A stretch of DNA of 64,000 nt from Microcaldota archaeon (lineage in GTDB: Archaea > Micrarchaeota > Micrarchaeia > Micrarchaeales > Micrarchaeaceae). Shown piece by piece: positions 3,451 through 62,291 of the stretch. The first letter of the stretch is position 1. Each line of letters begins with the position of its first letter. The notes below the pieces were generated by a model. It was not told the DNA's origin and did no database searches. It saw only the letters and a list, made by a program, of their open reading frames with translations. The translations under genes and the position numbers were made by a program. The stretch lies in the NCBI GenBank assembly GCA_021801355.1, contig JAJYYB010000005.1:62001-126000 (forward strand), in the 5' to 3' direction.

Positions 3451-3661
3451 AATCTAACGCCATATAGTAAGTTGACAAATAGAAGTAAAACGGAGAAATA
3501 AAAGTTAAGCAACGAATTTCTGGAAATGGCTTGTATAGGAAAATCCACTGTAACTTCATGCAAGCGGAGAAGGAAACAGGTCTTTCTAGATCAAATGTCA
3601 ACTCCCTATAATGCCATACAGTTCAGAAAGTAATAAATGCTTTGACTGGAATATTGGGCTT

Positions 3662-4138
3662 ATGGCGATCAAGTACTGGGAATACGAAGACGCACCGCTA
3701 AAGGAGAAGCTCAAAAACGTAAACGTAAAAGAGATTGCAAAAATATTTTTTGATAACGAAACAGAGGCTTACAGGCTTGCCGTGTTGCTACTTCAGGTCA
3801 AAAAGGACGGCACAATGCGCCTCAAGGACGTGCCTCAATCAATACCTATAGCTACTGCGAAACGGTACCTCGACTTCGCTGTTCAGACTGGTTTGCTAAA
3901 GCATGAGGACAATGCATACGCGCTTACCGATAGGTTCTCAAAGCCTTTCAGGAACATAGCCGTATACATAAAGGAGTGGATGGACAGCAAGGCAGAAGAG
4001 GATTTGGCCTTAGAGTTCCCAAACGCAAGAACGGATAAGCAGCGCAAAAGAGGTGGAAAGCAAATAGTTAGGGAACTAAATGAAGTGGAAGGCTCATTGC
4101 AGAAGCACGAGGCAGAAAATGCGGATGCTAAGGCTTAA
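3662..4138 (+). CDS. Small protein with predicted winged-helix-like N-terminal region, unknown function
   Basis: I do not recognise a family. The open frame begins at 3611, but the ATG at 3662 (MAIKYWEYED) looks the better start, since the 17 residues before it look non-coding. Residues from there contain an alpha-helical stretch with the pattern of a winged helix: a region around RLKDVPQSIPIATAKRYLDFAVQTGLLKHEDNAYALTDR reads like helix-turn-helix plus wing. The C-terminal third is charged (KQRKRGGK, then acidic). A DNA-binding or adaptor role is inference only. It stands alone between the DRG GTPase and tRNA-Arg, on the opposite strand from the tRNA. Confidence 0.6.
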   Translation: MAIKYWEYEDAPLKEKLKNVNVKEIAKIFFDNETEAYRLAVLLLQVKKDGTMRLKDVPQSIPIATAKRYLDFAVQTGLLKHEDNAYALTDRFSKPFRNIAVYIKEWMDSKAEEDLALEFPNARTDKQRKRGGKQIVRELNEVEGSLQKHEAENADAKA

Positions 4139-4162: not shown

Positions 4163-4253
4163 CGGGCCCGGCGGGATTTTCATACATTGTATTTTGAACC
4201 CGCGACCATCAGATTAGAAGTCTGCCGCTCTATCCAACCTGAGCTACGGGCCC
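4163..4253 (-). tRNA. tRNA-Arg(UCU) with a 16-nt insertion in the T-loop
   Basis: Read on the minus strand, the acceptor stem GGGCCCG/CGGGCCC is perfect, followed by discriminator G. The D-arm is GCTC...GAGC, and the anticodon loop CTTCTAA gives UCU. The T-stem GCGGG/CCCGC is perfect, but the T-loop (4176-4198) is 23 nt instead of 7. It starts TTCAA and ends AAAT, so about 16 nt are inserted. The insert can fold as ATAC-AAT-GTAT. Non-canonical tRNA micro-introns of this size, including in the T-loop, are known in archaea and are removed by the bulge-helix-bulge endonuclease. Position 27:43 is a G-A mismatch. CCA is not encoded. The last base of the TatD stop codon is tRNA base 1, suggesting co-transcription. 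Confidence 0.85.
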
Positions 4254-5050
4254 TAATAGCGCATAAATCCTTTCTCCTTGTTAATATTAAAGAATTTCTT
4301 CGTATTTGCCGTAATCGTTTGCGCTATCCTCCCGTAGTCTATCCCCTTTATACCGCCTATCATCCTGACAACACGTTCGACGTCCTTCGGTGTTGAGCCC
4401 ACTACTGGCGAATCCGTTTCAGCAAGGAATCTATCAACCGGCACATCATTTATTACCCTCTTCCTCTTCGCCGATTCTATCGGCGGTATGGATATCATGT
4501 AGCCCCTATCCATGGCAACCTTTGCATCTTTGACATCCCCTTCGAAGAAATGCAGTTGCACAGCAAGAGATTTCCTATCTTCAAGAATGGATAGAACTTC
4601 GTCCATAGCTTTCCTTGAGTGTACGCATACCGGGAGCTTGAGCTCCTCTGCTAAGTCCAAGAACGCCTCAAAGATGCGCTTCTGCGCTGTCCTATTCTTC
4701 GCATCCTCCGCTATCATATAATCCAAGCCTATCTCGCCTATGGCCACAACACGCTTTGCGTTCTCCCTTATGAGCTTCAGGTTAAATTCTAACTCGCCTT
4801 TTTGAAGGCTGTTCGCATATTCTGGTCCTATTCCCAGTGCCGGGAAGATGTGCTTCCCATCCGCCATTTCGAGCGATTTTAGGTTCGATTTCGTGTCCAC
4901 CCCGTCAGTCACTATCGTGGCTACTCCGTATTCTACCGCATCTTCTATCAAACCAGCGTCTCCTATTAAGTCAAGGTGAGAGTGCGCATCTGCTAGCTCC
5001 ACTTTCGTTTTTTGACCAAGATCAAACTCTTTTAACATCGTAGTGCGCAT
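4253..5050 (-). CDS. TatD-family metal-dependent hydrolase
   Basis: The 265-residue amidohydrolase-fold protein has the TatD signatures in order: the HxH metal ligands in DAHSHLD, GEIGLDY with the bridging Glu, VHSRKA, a late His in QLHFFEG and ETDSP. The family includes 3'-5' DNA/RNA exonucleases and D-aminoacyl-tRNA deacylases; the exact substrate is not predictable. ATG codons at 5050 and 5038 are both possible starts. It is transcribed directly into tRNA-Arg, sharing one base. The divergent membrane-protein gene to its right shares the intergenic region. Confidence 0.9.
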   Translation of the reverse strand: MRTTMLKEFDLGQKTKVELADAHSHLDLIGDAGLIEDAVEYGVATIVTDGVDTKSNLKSLEMADGKHIFPALGIGPEYANSLQKGELEFNLKLIRENAKRVVAIGEIGLDYMIAEDAKNRTAQKRIFEAFLDLAEELKLPVCVHSRKAMDEVLSILEDRKSLAVQLHFFEGDVKDAKVAMDRGYMISIPPIESAKRKRVINDVPVDRFLAETDSPVVGSTPKDVERVVRMIGGIKGIDYGRIAQTITANTKKFFNINKEKGFMRY

Positions 5051-37142: not shown

Positions 37143-37279
37143 GGGGTTGTGGCGTAATTTGGCAGCGCAGCGGACTCCAGATGTTTATTAACTTTTGAGC
37201 TAAACGCGATGATGAGAATCTGGAATGCAAATTCAGTGGAAGTAATCCGCTAGTCAGGGTTCAAATCCCTGCAACCCCA
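37143..37279 (+). tRNA. tRNA-Trp(CCA) with a 64-nt intron after position 37
   Basis: The acceptor GGGGTTG pairs with CAACCCC; the discriminator is A. The D-arm is GCGT/GCGC. Anticodon stem GCGGA/TCCGC has loop C-T-CCA-G then intron then A. T-arm CAGGG-TTCAAAT-CCCTG is standard. The intron is 37181-37244 at the canonical 37/38 site. It contains a perfect box C (ATGATGA, 37209-37215) followed by ATCTGGA, complementary to the anticodon region TCCAGAT. In euryarchaea the tRNA-Trp intron is a C/D guide RNA for methylation of its own anticodon loop. A clear box D (CTGA) is not seen here. Confidence 0.93.
37181..37244 (+). other. tRNA-Trp intron, possible relic C/D guide
   Basis: It contains box C ATGATGA (37209-37215) and a 7-nt match to the anticodon region, but no CTGA box D or D'. 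The complementarity may also be part of the bulge-helix-bulge splicing structure. Confidence 0.6.
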
Positions 37280-57309: not shown

Positions 57310-57514
57310 GTATATAAGGCCGATTTCTGCGAGCCTAATAAGGCGCGCCTTCGTTTCGCTATCTAATAATAATTGCTTCGTTTCATCTCCCTAATGCCGA
57401 TTCCCTACGGACCAGCAGACTAAGTGCCTGTAACTATTTTTTACCATTAGCCAAGTAATGTATATATTAAAAGTTATTTTAATAGTATTCACAATACAAT
57501 CAGTAAACTGCTTT

Positions 57515-57587
57515 AGCCCCGTCGTCTAGTGGCCAAGGACAGCGGGCTTTGGACCCGCGAACATCGGTTCGAATCCGGTCGGGGCTA
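57515..57587 (+). tRNA. tRNA-Gln(UUG), intact, integration site of an element
   Basis: Acceptor AGCCCCG/CGGGGCT, anticodon stem GCGGG/CCCGC with loop CTTTGGA (anticodon TTG), T-arm ATCGG-TTCGAAT-CCGGT and discriminator A. No intron. CCA is not encoded. Its 3' 57 nt are duplicated at 62225-62281, so the gene is the attachment site of the element whose integrase starts 21 bp downstream. Confidence 0.95.
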
Positions 57588-57597
57588 ATCCGGATTT
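57531..57597 (+). repeat. attL: tRNA-Gln 3' segment, direct repeat with 62225-62291
   Basis: 57531-57588 (GGCCAAGGAC... to GGGGCTAA) is identical to 62225-62282. One mismatch (T versus C) then CCGGATTT match again, giving about 67 bp. Confidence 0.93.
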
Positions 57598-57607
57598 TCG
57601 ACAGCAC

Positions 57608-58492
57608 TTGTCGTCGTTCGAATCCGGCAAGCAAGCGAAAGACATTTTAAGCAAACCGTTCGGATCGGTAGCCAAATCCGAACTAGAAAGAGTTAAGAAG
57701 GAGTTGGAAGAACTCCTGCCAAAATTGGGCAAGAAGGACATCAAGGTACTTCGCTCAATCATCTACCAACATTGGCAGAAGAGGTTCCGAAAGAACCACC
57801 CGCCAAAGTATGGTAGCATCAACAAAGGGTTCAACGATCAGGAGTTCCAGAAGTTCTTCAGGGCAATAGACAACGACAGGTTCTGCCTATTGTTTTTGTA
57901 CCAAGCGCAGCTTGGGCTAAGGATAGGCGAGGCGGTACGCGTCAACATAAAGGACATGGACTTGGAGACAAGGGAACTGACGCTAAGAACGGAAAAGGTG
58001 CAGACCGTGGACGTGCTACTCATACCTGTGCCGCTCTTCCAACAGACGTTGGCTTTCATAAAAGCCCACGCGAGCAGGATAGAGCAGGCGCAGGGATACC
58101 TGTTCTTCAAGGATAAGGGTGGCAGCGAGCGGGCGGAGCCATACTTTGACACCAACTACGCAAGGAACGCGTTTTGCAGGTATGTAAGGCTGGCCGGGCT
58201 GGACAGCGTATATGCAGAAAGCGATGAGCCGGCGGGCAAGCCTGGCCGAAGGCTGCACAGGCTGACAACGCACAGCTTAAGGCACTACGCGATTACCAGC
58301 TTCGCCAAGCACGCCAATGGGAACATCTTCTTGGCCAGCAAGTTTGCTAGGCACCACAATCCAAGGAACACCATGACCTACATCAACACCAACAAGGAGG
58401 AGCTTTACCAGCAGATAGATGGGGCGTTCGGAATCGGCCAAGCTATGGCTCTAAAGCTCAAGGTTTCCAAGAGCGAAAATGTATCATCATAA
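57608..58492 (+). CDS. int: Tyrosine recombinase (integrase)
   Basis: The 294-residue protein has the full active-site set: Arg105 (LGLRIGEA), Lys130 (LRTEKVQ), His222-x-x-Arg225 (HSLRH), His249/250 (ARHHNP) and nucleophile Tyr258 (MTYIN). A ~90-residue N-terminal helical core-binding region precedes. It recombines attP with the tRNA-Gln gene. Because the gene is intact, it is not the SSV type that is split on integration. The only start is TTG 57608 or a later codon; the first codons repeat GTTCGAATCCGG of the tRNA T-arm (57616-57627). Confidence 0.93.
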   Translation: MSSFESGKQAKDILSKPFGSVAKSELERVKKELEELLPKLGKKDIKVLRSIIYQHWQKRFRKNHPPKYGSINKGFNDQEFQKFFRAIDNDRFCLLFLYQAQLGLRIGEAVRVNIKDMDLETRELTLRTEKVQTVDVLLIPVPLFQQTLAFIKAHASRIEQAQGYLFFKDKGGSERAEPYFDTNYARNAFCRYVRLAGLDSVYAESDEPAGKPGRRLHRLTTHSLRHYAITSFAKHANGNIFLASKFARHHNPRNTMTYINTNKEELYQQIDGAFGIGQAMALKLKVSKSENVSS

Positions 58493-58546
58493 ACAGACCG
58501 AAATAGCGAAATCCAAAAGATGGTTTTTACTTTACATGCCCAGTCA

Positions 58547-58672
58547 ACTTTATCTGGCTATTGGCAATCAGATAAAGTTCAGCTTCGACGTAAAAATTTT
58601 AAGGCCCAAAATTTTACGTCGAGCGACTTTACATTGAATATACGTCATGTTCAGATAAAGAAACAGGTAAAG
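58547..58672. repeat. Iterons I: four CAGATAAAG sites
   Basis: ACTTTATCTG at 58547-58556 is the perfect inverted copy of CAGATAAAGT at 58569-58578 (12-bp spacer). A third copy, CAGATAAAG, lies at 58652-58660, and a variant CAGGTAAAG at 58664-58672. They flank the long hairpin and probably bind an element-encoded regulator, excisionase or replication factor. Confidence 0.7.
58585..58622. repeat. Long perfect-stem inverted repeat
   Basis: TCGACGTAAAAATTTT (58585-58600) and AAAATTTTACGTCGA (58608-58622) pair over 15 bp with one bulged A; the loop is AAGGCCC. It lies between iterons of family I, about 95 bp after the integrase stop. It could be a terminator, a recombination site or an origin hairpin. 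Confidence 0.75.
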
Positions 58673-58698
58673 TTCCTGTTATCAAAAATATGAAATGC

Positions 58699-58846
58699 GA
58701 CTTGGAACAAATTTTGAACTTGGAACAAAATTTCCAAATCGTTCCAAGTCGAGCCTTCGACGGCAAGGCCAAAAAGGCCGTTTTTCTGTCGTCGGGCGCC
58801 TCGCCATTATGAAAGTATGTTGTTTTGTAGCATTTCGTTCCAAGTC
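58699..58846. repeat. Iterons II: four GACTTGGAAC sites
   Basis: Direct copies at 58699-58708 and 58717-58726 (first base A instead of G), inverted copies GTTCCAAGTC at 58741-58750 and 58837-58846. Between the inverted copies is a GGCC-AAAAA-GGCC-G hairpin followed by TTTTT (58767-58785), a terminator-like structure. Confidence 0.7.
58767..58785 (+). terminator. Hairpin plus T-tract in the element control region
   Basis: GGCC-AAAAA-GGCC then G and five T. Orientation fits transcription from the left, possibly from the integrase side. Confidence 0.45.
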
Positions 58847-58855
58847 GCCCTGCAC

Positions 58856-59110
58856 CCGCCCCTAAGCCAGCTCCGCTGGCGCTCGGCAGGCTGTGGGCGG
58901 CTGTTTGCTTTGCTAGAAGGCTGCCCTTGCCCCCACCAAGGGCAGCCGCTTAAGCTAGCCGGGCGCCTTCGGTTGCGAAGGCTAGCCCAGCTCATAGGTA
59001 TCTTTAAGGCTCATGGGAGCCGACTGCCTAAGTTGTTAGGCTTGCAGCTCATTGGAGCGACCCCACGTAAGATGAGCATGGCGAGGCTTACGTGCTGGGT
59101 TTAAGGACAA
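58856..59110 (+). ncRNA. GC-rich multi-hairpin region, candidate structured RNA of the element
   Basis: At least seven stem-loops lie in tandem. CCGCCC/GGGCGG (58856-58861 with 58895-58900) encloses GCCAGC-tcc-GCTGGC (58866-58880). GGCTGCCCTTG/CAAGGGCAGCC is an 11-bp perfect stem with 7-nt loop (58919-58947), itself enclosed by GCTAG/CTAGC. GCCTTCG-GTTG-CGAAGGC is at 58965-58982, GGCTC-ATGG-GAGCC at 59008-59021, GCCTAA-GTTG-TTAGGC at 59026-59041, GCTC-ATTG-GAGC at 59047-59058, and CACGTAAG/CTTACGTG at 59064-59094. GC content is far above the AT-rich cargo. No match to tRNA, 5S, SRP or RNase P RNA was recognised. Strand is uncertain, because the stems fold on either strand. Confidence 0.5.
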
Positions 59111-59131
59111 GGCTTAAAGCATCTCACCGCC

Positions 59132-59935
59132 ATGACTATTAAACGGGGCTATTTTATGGGGGAGAAAAATTATGGATTGGACAGGGAAAACCGATTGCAG
59201 GAAAAAGTCCGTCATATTTTAGGTTTAGTATCTCAGCATTCCGTAGAATGGCAAACGGGCTGGGGCTACTATATAAACATAAAAGAAGAATTTGGAGAGA
59301 TAGGCAGAATAGGGTTTACTCTCAATCATGATAGGTCTCGTTTAGATTTAGGTATGCATTTCGGTGATACCTTAGAGCAGGCAAAAGAACTTTATTCTAA
59401 TCAAAATGTAAAATATGAAGATTTCGCATCACTAGCGCCTGATTTTGAACCGCATCCGAATCTTCACGTTGGTATACCATACCCGGGCCCATTTACGCAT
59501 ATTGCATGGTTTAAAACGCCTAAAGGACGAGAAAGAGAATATTTTGAGTATTGGAGAAAAAACTGGTCCGGACTAAAAGCGGATGAAAGGGAGTATATCC
59601 TCGATGCTTTAAAAGAGCTGGTTGATAATAAATTAATAAACGAAATAGGGCATCCTAATAAGTATTGGATTGACCAACTTAGACTGCCAATCCGCAGCCG
59701 CGAAGAGATAACTATCGAAGATGCAGTAAATAAGCCAGAGGGTGATTACCCGATGCTCGTTATTAGACCGGCATATGCAGTAGTAGTTTATGAATATTGT
59801 ACTGTGGAGGACGTGCTAAAGAAGGAAGGTGAAGAAATCGCCAGCGATTTAAGAACAAAGATTTCAAAATGTTTTGAAACCGTATTGAAAAAGAAGCCGT
59901 TCTATCTGGCTGAGGGACAAAACCACTCTATTTGA
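59132..59935 (+). CDS. Element cargo protein 1, unknown
   Basis: The 267-residue protein (ATG 59132; ATG 59156 is an alternative beginning MGEKNYGLDRENR) has no recognised family. It is soluble and mixed alpha/beta by pattern, with aromatic-rich segments (SVEWQTGWGYYINIKEEFG, GPFTHIAWFKT, YFEYWRKNWSG). Base composition is clearly more AT-rich than the chromosome, pointing to recent transfer. The next gene starts 4 bp after its stop, so an operon is likely. Confidence 0.7.
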   Translation: MTIKRGYFMGEKNYGLDRENRLQEKVRHILGLVSQHSVEWQTGWGYYINIKEEFGEIGRIGFTLNHDRSRLDLGMHFGDTLEQAKELYSNQNVKYEDFASLAPDFEPHPNLHVGIPYPGPFTHIAWFKTPKGREREYFEYWRKNWSGLKADEREYILDALKELVDNKLINEIGHPNKYWIDQLRLPIRSREEITIEDAVNKPEGDYPMLVIRPAYAVVVYEYCTVEDVLKKEGEEIASDLRTKISKCFETVLKKKPFYLAEGQNHSI

Positions 59936-59939
59936 AGCT

Positions 59940-60188
59940 ATGGCAGAACTATCATGGTTAAAAGGACGAGACTATATTATGACGGGCGAGAATGATAAGA
60001 ATGTTAAACCCGATGCGCATGCAATTCTACCTGATACTAAATGGGCCGCTACTGAAGAAGGCAGCGGATACCGCACCTGTAGAAGCACGCTGGATTATCA
60101 CAAAGGCAGCGGAAACACCACTAGAAATCCTAAAGGAGCTGGCGCAGGACAAGTCACAATAAAATTATTAGATTTTAGTTTTAGCTAA
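59940..60188 (+). CDS. Element cargo protein 2, small, unknown
   Basis: The 82-residue open frame starts 4 bp after the previous gene. No motif is recognised. It is Gly/Lys/Asp-rich with low complexity (GSGNTTRNPKGAGAGQ), so it may be disordered or a decayed gene. Confidence 0.4.
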   Translation: MAELSWLKGRDYIMTGENDKNVKPDAHAILPDTKWAATEEGSGYRTCRSTLDYHKGSGNTTRNPKGAGAGQVTIKLLDFSFS

Positions 60189-60303
60189 CTTATACGATTG
60201 GTGAATATATACGCAAAAGCAGAAAGGACAACTAAGGGCATTTTGCCATATAAACGAATTTAGCAAAAGTAAGGGATCGCCCGGCTTAACACACTTGCCT
60301 CAA

Positions 60304-61482
60304 ATGATAGCTTTTTGTGAGCCACTTGCTTTATGGTCTCCATCTTTTAAATGGATGGAGTACAAGAAGTGCCCAGTAAGTTCCGAAGAGCTATTGCGCT
60401 ATATCAAAACTGGTCATGTGCGAGTTTTTGGGCGTAAAAAATGGTTAACGGATGAGGCTTTCAGAAACACGCATTACAAAAATAATCCAGATTGGAGTAA
60501 AGCAGCACTTTGGACCGCATATGATGATGATCTTCTTAAAATCTACGACAAAGACCTGAACAGGAAAAAGGAGGAAAGACGTGTCTGTTCAGTACCTGAT
60601 GCAATAGGGTCAGAATATGCAGATAGGGCTTTAAAGCAACCTAATAACCTAGCAGTAAGAGAGGCAAAAAATCTTATACGCAGGAATCAAGTTCCGGGTG
60701 ATTGGGACAGAGGATATAGAAATAAACCGAATATGCCACTTAATAAAAAGGTACACGAAGTACTTACCAATTCTTACAATAACATTTTAGCACGAAAACA
60801 AACTCAATCAGATTTGATGATTTTCCCAGTGGATTATATACCGCCACTTTTTGTAGGAGCTTCAAGAAATCTTTCCAAGTATAAAGAAGGCGATATTAAT
60901 ACTTTACAACTTGACCAATTTCTTAGCGAATGCGTTAATATTTTAAGCTCGTTGAAAACTTTTTCTAACGAGTGGACACTTAACCGATTTATGAATAGTA
61001 GACATAGAAAAGAATTAATAGATTGGTACGATAGGGCGTGCGAACCCACCTCTCCTTTAATAAAGGACGCATCGCTATTAAACCAAAAAGAAGTAAATTA
61101 TAATACGGTAAAAGCATTATACGACATGATAGACAAAGGGCTGATTAATGAAGAAGAGGGGATAATGGCCTTGGTGCCCAAAGATCCATACCACGCGACC
61201 ATTAGTATGGTTAGGGCCATAACGGAGATTGTAGCTATCGCCGTTGCGCCATTAGGCTTCGCAGTAGCTTATGCACCATTAGTTGTTCACCTTATCGAAG
61301 TTGGGAATAATTATTTGGAAGTTACGAGTAGAAAACCTGTGTCTTCTGCAAGATATAGAGGTATACAGGCACCTTTCATAGCACAAACGGGAGGTGGTGC
61401 TACTCTTATGCAAATAAAACGCATGAGAAACTCCCTTAAGAAACAACTTGATGAATTAAAAAATCAAAAATACAAATTATGA
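60304..61482 (+). CDS. Element cargo protein 3, unknown
   Basis: From ATG 60304 the 392-residue protein (frame from TTG 60295) begins MIAFCEPLALWSPSFKWMEY. No family can be named. It is charged and soluble-looking except for one hydrophobic stretch near residues 305-335 (ITEIVAIAVAPLGFAVAYAPLVVHLI), which may be buried or membrane-inserted. It ends in a coiled-coil-like basic tail. AT-rich like its neighbours. Function unknown; a defence or interference role is only a guess from its setting in a mobile element. Confidence 0.65.
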   Translation: MIAFCEPLALWSPSFKWMEYKKCPVSSEELLRYIKTGHVRVFGRKKWLTDEAFRNTHYKNNPDWSKAALWTAYDDDLLKIYDKDLNRKKEERRVCSVPDAIGSEYADRALKQPNNLAVREAKNLIRRNQVPGDWDRGYRNKPNMPLNKKVHEVLTNSYNNILARKQTQSDLMIFPVDYIPPLFVGASRNLSKYKEGDINTLQLDQFLSECVNILSSLKTFSNEWTLNRFMNSRHRKELIDWYDRACEPTSPLIKDASLLNQKEVNYNTVKALYDMIDKGLINEEEGIMALVPKDPYHATISMVRAITEIVAIAVAPLGFAVAYAPLVVHLIEVGNNYLEVTSRKPVSSARYRGIQAPFIAQTGGGATLMQIKRMRNSLKKQLDELKNQKYKL

Positions 61483-61504
61483 TAATAGATTTTCGGTGTT
61501 TATA

Positions 61505-61888
61505 ATGCAAAAAATAGAACTAACTAAGATTTCGGGAAAGGACGATCCAAGGGGTGAGATATTTAATCTAAGTCTTCCGGCGAAGGGTGTCATAAACATT
61601 CAGACCACAAAGAAAGGTTATGGCCGCGGAGGGCACAGCCATAGTTATAACGAAACATTCCTAGTTATTACCGGTAAAGTTGAGTATCATACTGGGATAA
61701 TAAGTAAAGAGCGTATAATTACATTCGGACCGGGTTCTGTAATTCAGACTACGCCAAAAGAACCTCACTACTTAGTAGCTAAAAAATTCTCGGTACTAAT
61801 AGAAATTCGGCCTTCTGGCACTAAATATAAAGCCAAAAATTACGAGCCATATCGGAGTAGGGTATTAAAATTAATGGATGGGTACTAA
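61505..61888 (+). CDS. Cupin-domain protein (element cargo)
   Basis: The 127-residue protein (ATG 61505) has the cupin motif 1 GGHSHSYNETFLVITGKVEYH (metal ligands H-x-H...E) and a motif 2 remnant with EPHYLV. A single small cupin could be a sugar isomerase, a dioxygenase or a sensor; context does not decide. Co-directional with the other cargo genes. Confidence 0.8.
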   Translation: MQKIELTKISGKDDPRGEIFNLSLPAKGVINIQTTKKGYGRGGHSHSYNETFLVITGKVEYHTGIISKERIITFGPGSVIQTTPKEPHYLVAKKFSVLIEIRPSGTKYKAKNYEPYRSRVLKLMDGY

Positions 61889-62084
61889 AAAATACCTGTT
61901 TATGACCTTCTGCTAATGTGTCTGGGCAGAAGTTACCTGAAAACCATCTAATTTTTCATAGAAGCTTTTGTACATTGGCTTTTTTTGGCGGAAACCTTTT
62001 ACGAAAAGTTTGCAAAAAGTCTGGGTACGCTAGGCGACATTTTGGAAATGCTCGACGGAAACACTAGGCGCGTTTTTGGCTAAC

Positions 62085-62110
62085 CGTTCGGAACCAGTAG
62101 TGTCCGAACG
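62085..62110. repeat. Inverted repeat near attR
   Basis: CGTTCGGA (62085-62092) and TCCGAACG (62103-62110) pair over 8 bp with a 10-nt spacer, about 115 bp before attR. The 61889-62224 gap has no gene; this may be an integrase or excisionase arm site. Confidence 0.5.
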
Positions 62111-62224
62111 ATATGTGCTTATAAAGCTTGGCCACGCTAAAGATGTGTTCGATTCCGAGCTTTTTTGGCTTGGGATTTTGTTGTTTTTGTCGTGAGAAAA
62201 TGGAGCTAGAAACGTCAGAAGCTA

Positions 62225-62291
62225 GGCCAAGGACAGCGGGCTTTGGACCCGCGAACATCGGTTCGAATCCGGTCGGGGCTAACCCGGATTT
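62225..62291 (+). repeat. attR: duplicated tRNA-Gln 3' segment
   Basis: The 57-bp tRNA 3' part is identical to 57531-57587, with flanking CCGGATTT also shared. It lacks the acceptor 5' strand and D-arm start, so it is not a functional tRNA. Confidence 0.93.

Follow-up and report, generated by a model that had tools for sequence, protein, structure and literature searches.

A predicted 16-nt bulge-helix-bulge intron at position 59/60 in the T-loop of tRNA-Arg(UCU) from a Micrarchaeota archaeon

We propose that a Micrarchaeota archaeon has a functional tRNA-Arg(UCU) gene, present in one copy, whose T-loop contains a 16-nt bulge-helix-bulge (BHB) intron at position 59/60 that would be spliced by EndA and RtcB. 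We put the probability of this reading at roughly 0.94. The intron is of a known kind (a BHB intron at 59/60); the points of interest are its wide spread in the phylum and a possible transfer of introns between tRNA genes. More tentatively, BHB introns in the T-loop may be found throughout the order, be biased towards arginine tRNAs, and spread between isoacceptor genes; in this genome, a UCG intron may have overwritten a longer UCU intron while leaving the exons unchanged. We would give this fuller picture somewhat less than even odds. The gene lies in a window of 64,000 nt (the whole stretch of DNA that we analysed), which is part of an assembly of 1.07 Mb in 21 contigs that is 96% complete.

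The tRNA-Arg(UCU) gene and its predicted intron

The earlier note on this DNA had described a tRNA-Arg(UCU) with a perfect T-stem and a T-loop of 23 nt, and the sequence confirms this, at 4253..4163 on the minus strand. The acceptor stem has 7 base pairs (GGGCCCG/CGGGCCC), and the T-stem has 5 (GCGGG/CCCGC) and closes the 23-nt loop, which is TTCAAAATACAATGTATGAAAAT. Outside the T-loop, the cloverleaf is regular except that the anticodon stem begins with a G-A pair, which the identical exons of other members of the genus also have. The features of the locus are listed in window coordinates, with their basis in parentheses:

4163..4253, minus strand: tRNA-Arg(UCU) gene including the intron, 91 nt, or 75 nt if spliced; G1 is 4253 and the discriminator G73 is 4163
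4216..4218, minus strand: anticodon TCT, in the loop CTTCTAA (sequence, and ARAGORN on the spliced form)
4199..4203, minus strand: 5' strand of the T-stem, GCGGG, which is the outer helix h of the BHB (sequence)
4195..4198, minus strand: exon half of the central helix H, TTCA, T54 to A57 (sequence; pairing of H in interrupted T-loops, below)
4192..4194, minus strand: bulge AAA at the 5' splice site (sequence; the cut position is predicted from the BHB rules)
4177..4192, minus strand: predicted 16-nt intron at 59/60, ATACAATGTATGAAAA (sequence and in-silico splicing)
4183..4191, minus strand: intron hairpin h', TAC-AAT-GTA (pair probabilities of 0.91-0.93; h' also pairs in relatives)
4179..4182, minus strand: intron half of helix H, TGAA (sequence and comparison with relatives)
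4176..4178, minus strand: predicted bulge AAT at the 3' splice site, whose last T would be T60 of the mature tRNA (sequence)
4171..4175, minus strand: 3' strand of the T-stem, CCCGC (sequence)
4253..5050, minus strand: ORF for a TatD-related DNase, directly upstream on the same strand (PF01026, E = 3.3e-52; synteny in three genomes of the genus)
3611..4138, plus strand: conserved ORF of 175 amino acids that flanks the tRNA on its other side (syntenic in the genus; no Pfam match)

The TatD-family ORF and the tRNA share one base on the same strand: 4253 ends the stop codon of the ORF and is G1 of the tRNA. The letters at this junction are the same in three other genomes of the genus (G002, G003, and G004).

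Unspliced, the gene is not called by ARAGORN, and its match to Rfam RF00005 is weak (31.9 bits, with the T-arm skipped). If the 16 nt are removed in silico, then ARAGORN calls tRNA-Arg(tct), and a complete standard tRNA results. The ends of the intron are uncertain by about 1 base because of runs of A, and the mature sequence is the same either way.

A strict hBHBh' motif fits the T-loop (TTCA-AAA-TAC-AAT-GTA-TGAA-AAT), with the T-stem as h, an H of 4 base pairs, two 3-nt bulges, and h'. In a BHB, the cut falls after the second base of each bulge. Cuts placed by this rule would excise 16 nt at 59/60, and the loop that is left would be TTCAAAT. In the precursor, the T-stem, the TTCA/TGAA helix, and the small intron hairpin would form the strict motif; the epsilon-type EndA would cut each of the 3-nt bulges once, and RtcB would ligate the exons, which would bring back this 7-nt loop. 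The intron is very probably cut out by the organism's splicing enzyme.

Modelling of the BHB, which had been suggested as a check, gave a divided answer: the strict hBHBh' pairing can form, but it is not the minimum-energy fold of the T-arm (-8.0 kcal/mol for the BHB and -9.8 for the best fold, a difference of 1.8). In the best predicted fold, the hairpin is lengthened to 4 base pairs and TTCA and TGAA are unpaired; the pair probabilities for H are just 0.10-0.13. Because energy folding favours the variant with H open, the BHB reading rests on conservation and not on predicted stability.

For helix H, we searched this genome and 40 relatives (41 genomes) with a pattern that does not require TGAA. 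This gave 84 matches, of which 6 are intact tRNAs with a chance match downstream and 78 are interrupted T-loops. All four positions of H pair in 72 of the 78, and pairing is incomplete in the other 6. The pairs are mostly TTCA/TGAA (54 interrupted loops) or TTCA/TGGA (14); loops with TTCG have CGAA in one case, CGAG in one, and letters that do not pair in two. For h', the mean run of pairs beside the bulges is 2.92 base pairs across 48 sequences, as compared to a mean of 1.02 and a maximum of 1.67 with shuffled partners (2000 shuffles; this is not a probability, as the 48 sequences are related). If h' is slid by one or two bases, then the mean run is at most 0.63. The run is 3 base pairs or more in 25 of the 48 sequences, and there is no run in 4.

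Exons are constant and introns change within the genus

The tRNA-Arg(UCU) gene is flanked by the TatD-family ORF and the 175-amino-acid ORF in G002, G003, and G004 as it is in the window. The exons are identical in all four genomes and the introns differ: the UCU intron is 16 nt in our genome and 27 nt in the other three. (Our genome, G002, and G004 agree at all 52 exon bases that precede the inner T-stem and at the 8 that follow it.) Constant exons around a differing insert are as expected if the insert is spliced out. As the exons stay the same and the introns do not, these close relatives make the turnover and transfer of introns traceable.

We considered whether the UCU intron was copied from the genome's own UCG isoacceptor, by a short conversion tract or by transposition, and replaced a longer ancestral intron. 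This concerns only the history of the intron and is compatible with splicing. The UCU and UCG introns of this genome are both 16 nt and are identical at 14 of 16 positions; both differences are in the hairpin loop (AAT or GAG). The UCU intron is closer to the UCG intron of its own genome than to its own orthologues of 27 nt. The T-stem sequences that flank the introns are the same in the two genes, and the UCG introns of G002 and G004 are 16 and 17 nt. On the other side, chance likeness is not negligible among short introns that are constrained by the BHB, the comparison is post hoc and involves few bases, and the 27-nt intron may have been shortened independently. Another member of the genus (G001) has a UCG tRNA with a T-loop intron of 28 nt and no match for UCU, and this also counts against a transfer. 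That UCG gene lies just after a homologue of TatD, which is a further hint of exchange among arginine tRNA genes. The simplest reading is that the intron moved from the UCG gene to the UCU gene within this lineage, though this is post hoc and depends on few bases, and we consider it an even bet.

There is precedent for this in other archaea: for Thermoproteales, the sections of PMC4090602 that we cite report tRNAs of different kinds with similar introns, and intron transposition between tRNAs was described in the same group (Fujishima 2010, as cited in the relevant parts of PMC4090602, PMC3293823, and PMC3218864). The likeness is that near-identical introns occur in different tRNAs of one genome. 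As compared to the Thermoproteales as these parts present them, a single pair is involved here, Arg UCU with Arg UCG, with the introns at the same position and in another phylum. If the transfer is real, then intron movement between tRNA genes has been caught at the scale of a single genus.

T-loop introns in the phylum

The earlier note had placed T-loop introns mainly in some Thermoproteales and a few DPANN, but we find them to be widespread in this phylum. In a sample of 295 genomes from the phylum, a strict pattern for T-loop introns matched 117, with 98 of 161 in the order and 19 of 134 elsewhere (a split that we counted by eye). As the pattern calls for TGAA and for GGG/CCC in the inner T-stem, its counts are too low and it is biased towards tRNAs with this stem. 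It also matched 25 of 41 close genomes. A control with the reversed pattern had 0 hits in every row of the phylum sample. Synteny, recurrence, and the lack of control matches rule out a chance insert in the T-loop.

We ran ARAGORN on 48 distinct sequences from the 54 matches in the close genomes (5 were not included and 1 was a duplicate). After in-silico splicing, 41 of the 48 gave a tRNA with an isotype: 31 Arg, 8 Ala (GGC), and 2 Lys. The bias towards arginine may be partly a product of the pattern's stem requirement. The other 7 look like tRNA-Ser(GGA) with a second intron, and 6 of these are called as Ser(gga) once both introns are removed; the seventh (L052) was not matched by our two-intron expression.

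Among public genomes, 42 contigs match the Arg(UCU) gene. Most are labelled as Micrarchaeota, including the complete genome ARM-1 (AP024486.1), in which the T-loop insert of this gene is 13 nt long, and the other labels are Woesearchaeota (2), Marsarchaeota (2), Thermoplasmatota (1), and bacterium (1). These labels, together with the EndA identity given below, are our basis for placing the genome in Micrarchaeota. After splicing, 40 of the 42 are called as Arg(tct). The two that are not are L115, with a Woesearchaeota label, and L126, with a Thermoplasmatota label. Before splicing, ARAGORN made no call in any of the 42, and it missed 47 of the 48 sequences above. Essential tRNA genes, mainly for arginine, are thus hidden from ARAGORN across this lineage, and claims of tRNA losses or gaps need care.

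Our literature search found nothing on T-loop introns in Micrarchaeota, though earlier work on the EndA of ARMAN may well report some. The position itself is known: 59/60 is among the non-canonical archaeal intron sites that are listed in the portion of PMC4090602 that we used, and permuted tRNAs of Thermofilum are joined at 59/60 (from the relevant portion of PMC3218864). Our intron shares the position and the BHB geometry with these, as well as the expectation that it is a substrate of EndA. The same portion of the review (PMC4090602) names Crenarchaeota and Nanoarchaeota as rich sources of introns; in contrast, we find at least 5 tRNAs with T-loop introns in a member of Micrarchaeota, and such introns recur across the order.

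Splicing enzymes

The genome encodes an epsilon-type EndA, which answers a question about the type of endonuclease that had been raised along with the intron. It is a single three-unit protein of 388 amino acids, and residues 6-388 align to the epsilon2 EndA of ARMAN-2 (Ca. Micrarchaeum acidiphilum; 4fz2) with E = 2.2e-175 and 249 of 381 positions identical. The two proteins thus have 65% identity over their length, and they share the catalytic residues Y236, H251, and K282 as well as Y160 and K161 of the ASL. (Y160 was read by eye from the alignment.) The genome also encodes the ligase RtcB (E = 5.7e-167).

The epsilon-type EndA of ARMAN-2 is reported to have broad specificity (in the excerpts of PMC6379350 and PMC12397907 that we cite) and to cut both BHB and BHL introns (PMC12397907, same excerpt). 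The substrates assayed in that excerpt were pre-tRNA-Ile(UAU) and pre-tRNA-Cys(GCA); here, the candidate substrate is a T-loop intron. The tRNAs described here would be a natural set of substrates for this type of enzyme outside of the anticodon loop.

In favour of the claim that about 16 nt of the T-loop must be removed are the BHB anatomy, the result of splicing in silico, conservation, and the fact that the genome encodes both EndA and RtcB. The accompanying claim that a broad-specificity endonuclease is needed is not shown: the motif is a strict hBHBh', whose shape makes no such demand. Of 116 genomes sampled in the phylum, 114 have a match to epsilon-type EndA, whereas T-loop introns of the strict pattern are concentrated in one order. 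This permissive enzyme therefore does not, on its own, explain where T-loop introns are frequent.

We also note that at one locus (G056:C26:3895-5039) EndA is split between two neighbouring frames, one matching residues 8-182 of the single-chain form and the other residues 191-388. The only match in family f12 (G059 and G088) was a shorter EndA, with 39-40% identity.

Alternative explanations and the tRNA genes of this genome

T-loop introns might be kept because they protect the 3' halves of tRNA genes from integrating elements. The genome has eight att-like fragments of tRNA 3' halves, and the tRNAs that have T-loop introns are the source of none of them. This could easily be due to chance, as there are just 5 such tRNAs. 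Also, no second UCU copy or fragment was matched in the 20 genomes whose UCU gene is intact. Protection from integrases is thus unsupported, and we think it improbable.

A still less probable alternative is that our tRNA-Arg(UCU) gene is a pseudogene or a silent copy and that AGA codons are served by another tRNA-Arg(UCU). A second copy could be missing from a 96% complete assembly in 21 contigs. However, we found no second UCU gene, intact or otherwise, which had been named as a finding that would count against the intron: there is no other UCU tRNA among the 49 Rfam tRNA hits in this genome (E of 1 or less), and a pattern search of the genome found no UCU match with an intact T-loop. The identity of the exons in four genomes of the genus also argues for a functional gene. 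Across the order, 40 genomes have an interrupted Arg(UCU) gene, 20 have an intact one, and none has both (of 158 genomes, 98 of which match neither pattern, so this survey is incomplete). In 8 ORFs of the window, 114 of 163 arginine codons are AGA (25) or AGG (89).

It is least probable of all, and very unlikely, that the insert is retained in the mature tRNA as an enlarged T-loop: the minimum-energy fold is a simple extended T-arm hairpin, but inserts in Arg(UCU) genes are anywhere between 12 and 38 nt long and change in sequence while the exons are constant within the genus, the intron half of H is conserved and would have no role in a retained loop, and contacts between the T-loop and the D-loop would be lost.

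Besides the spliced tRNA-Arg(UCU) that we propose, four further tRNAs in this genome have T-loop introns:

tRNA-Arg(UCG): 16 nt
tRNA-Arg(CCU): 36 nt
tRNA-Leu(CAA): 15 nt
tRNA-Ser(GGA): 17 nt, with a second intron of 12 nt in the anticodon loop

The pattern picked up tRNA-Ser(GGA), which Rfam did not detect at E = 1. No tRNA-His, tRNA-Pro(UGG), or tRNA-Pro(GGG) was recognised among the 49 Rfam hits; these genes are possibly hidden by introns or absent from the assembly.

Other tRNA-related observations

The eight 3'-half fragments (L039, L040, L043, and L045-L049) are of Ala, Glu, Gln, and Lys types. Each is preceded by a similar short leader with words like CTAGA or GCTA. They are probably the att sites of one family of elements that uses many tRNAs.

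The window contains an integrated element of about 4.7 kb (57514-62281, plus strand) that starts with an intact tRNA-Gln(UUG) and also holds a cupin-like ORF. Its other features are:

57608-58492: ORF of the phage integrase family (PF00589)
59132-59935 and 60295-61482: cargo ORFs (no Pfam match)
62225-62281: tRNA-Gln 3' fragment that closes the element

Two odd tRNAs elsewhere in the genome were read by eye: L035 (G000:C7:5051-5350) and L044 (G000:C21:137207-137492). One resembles Ser(CGA) with an insert before the anticodon, and the other resembles Leu(UAA) with an insert in the D-arm. Finally, a tRNA at 37143-37279 of the window (plus strand) has a long insert in the anticodon loop. By eye, the loop looks like that of Trp(CCA), while ARAGORN calls the tRNA Arg(cct). 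Its intron contains GATGATGA, which we take to be a box C-like motif, as in the archaeal Trp introns that bear guide RNAs.
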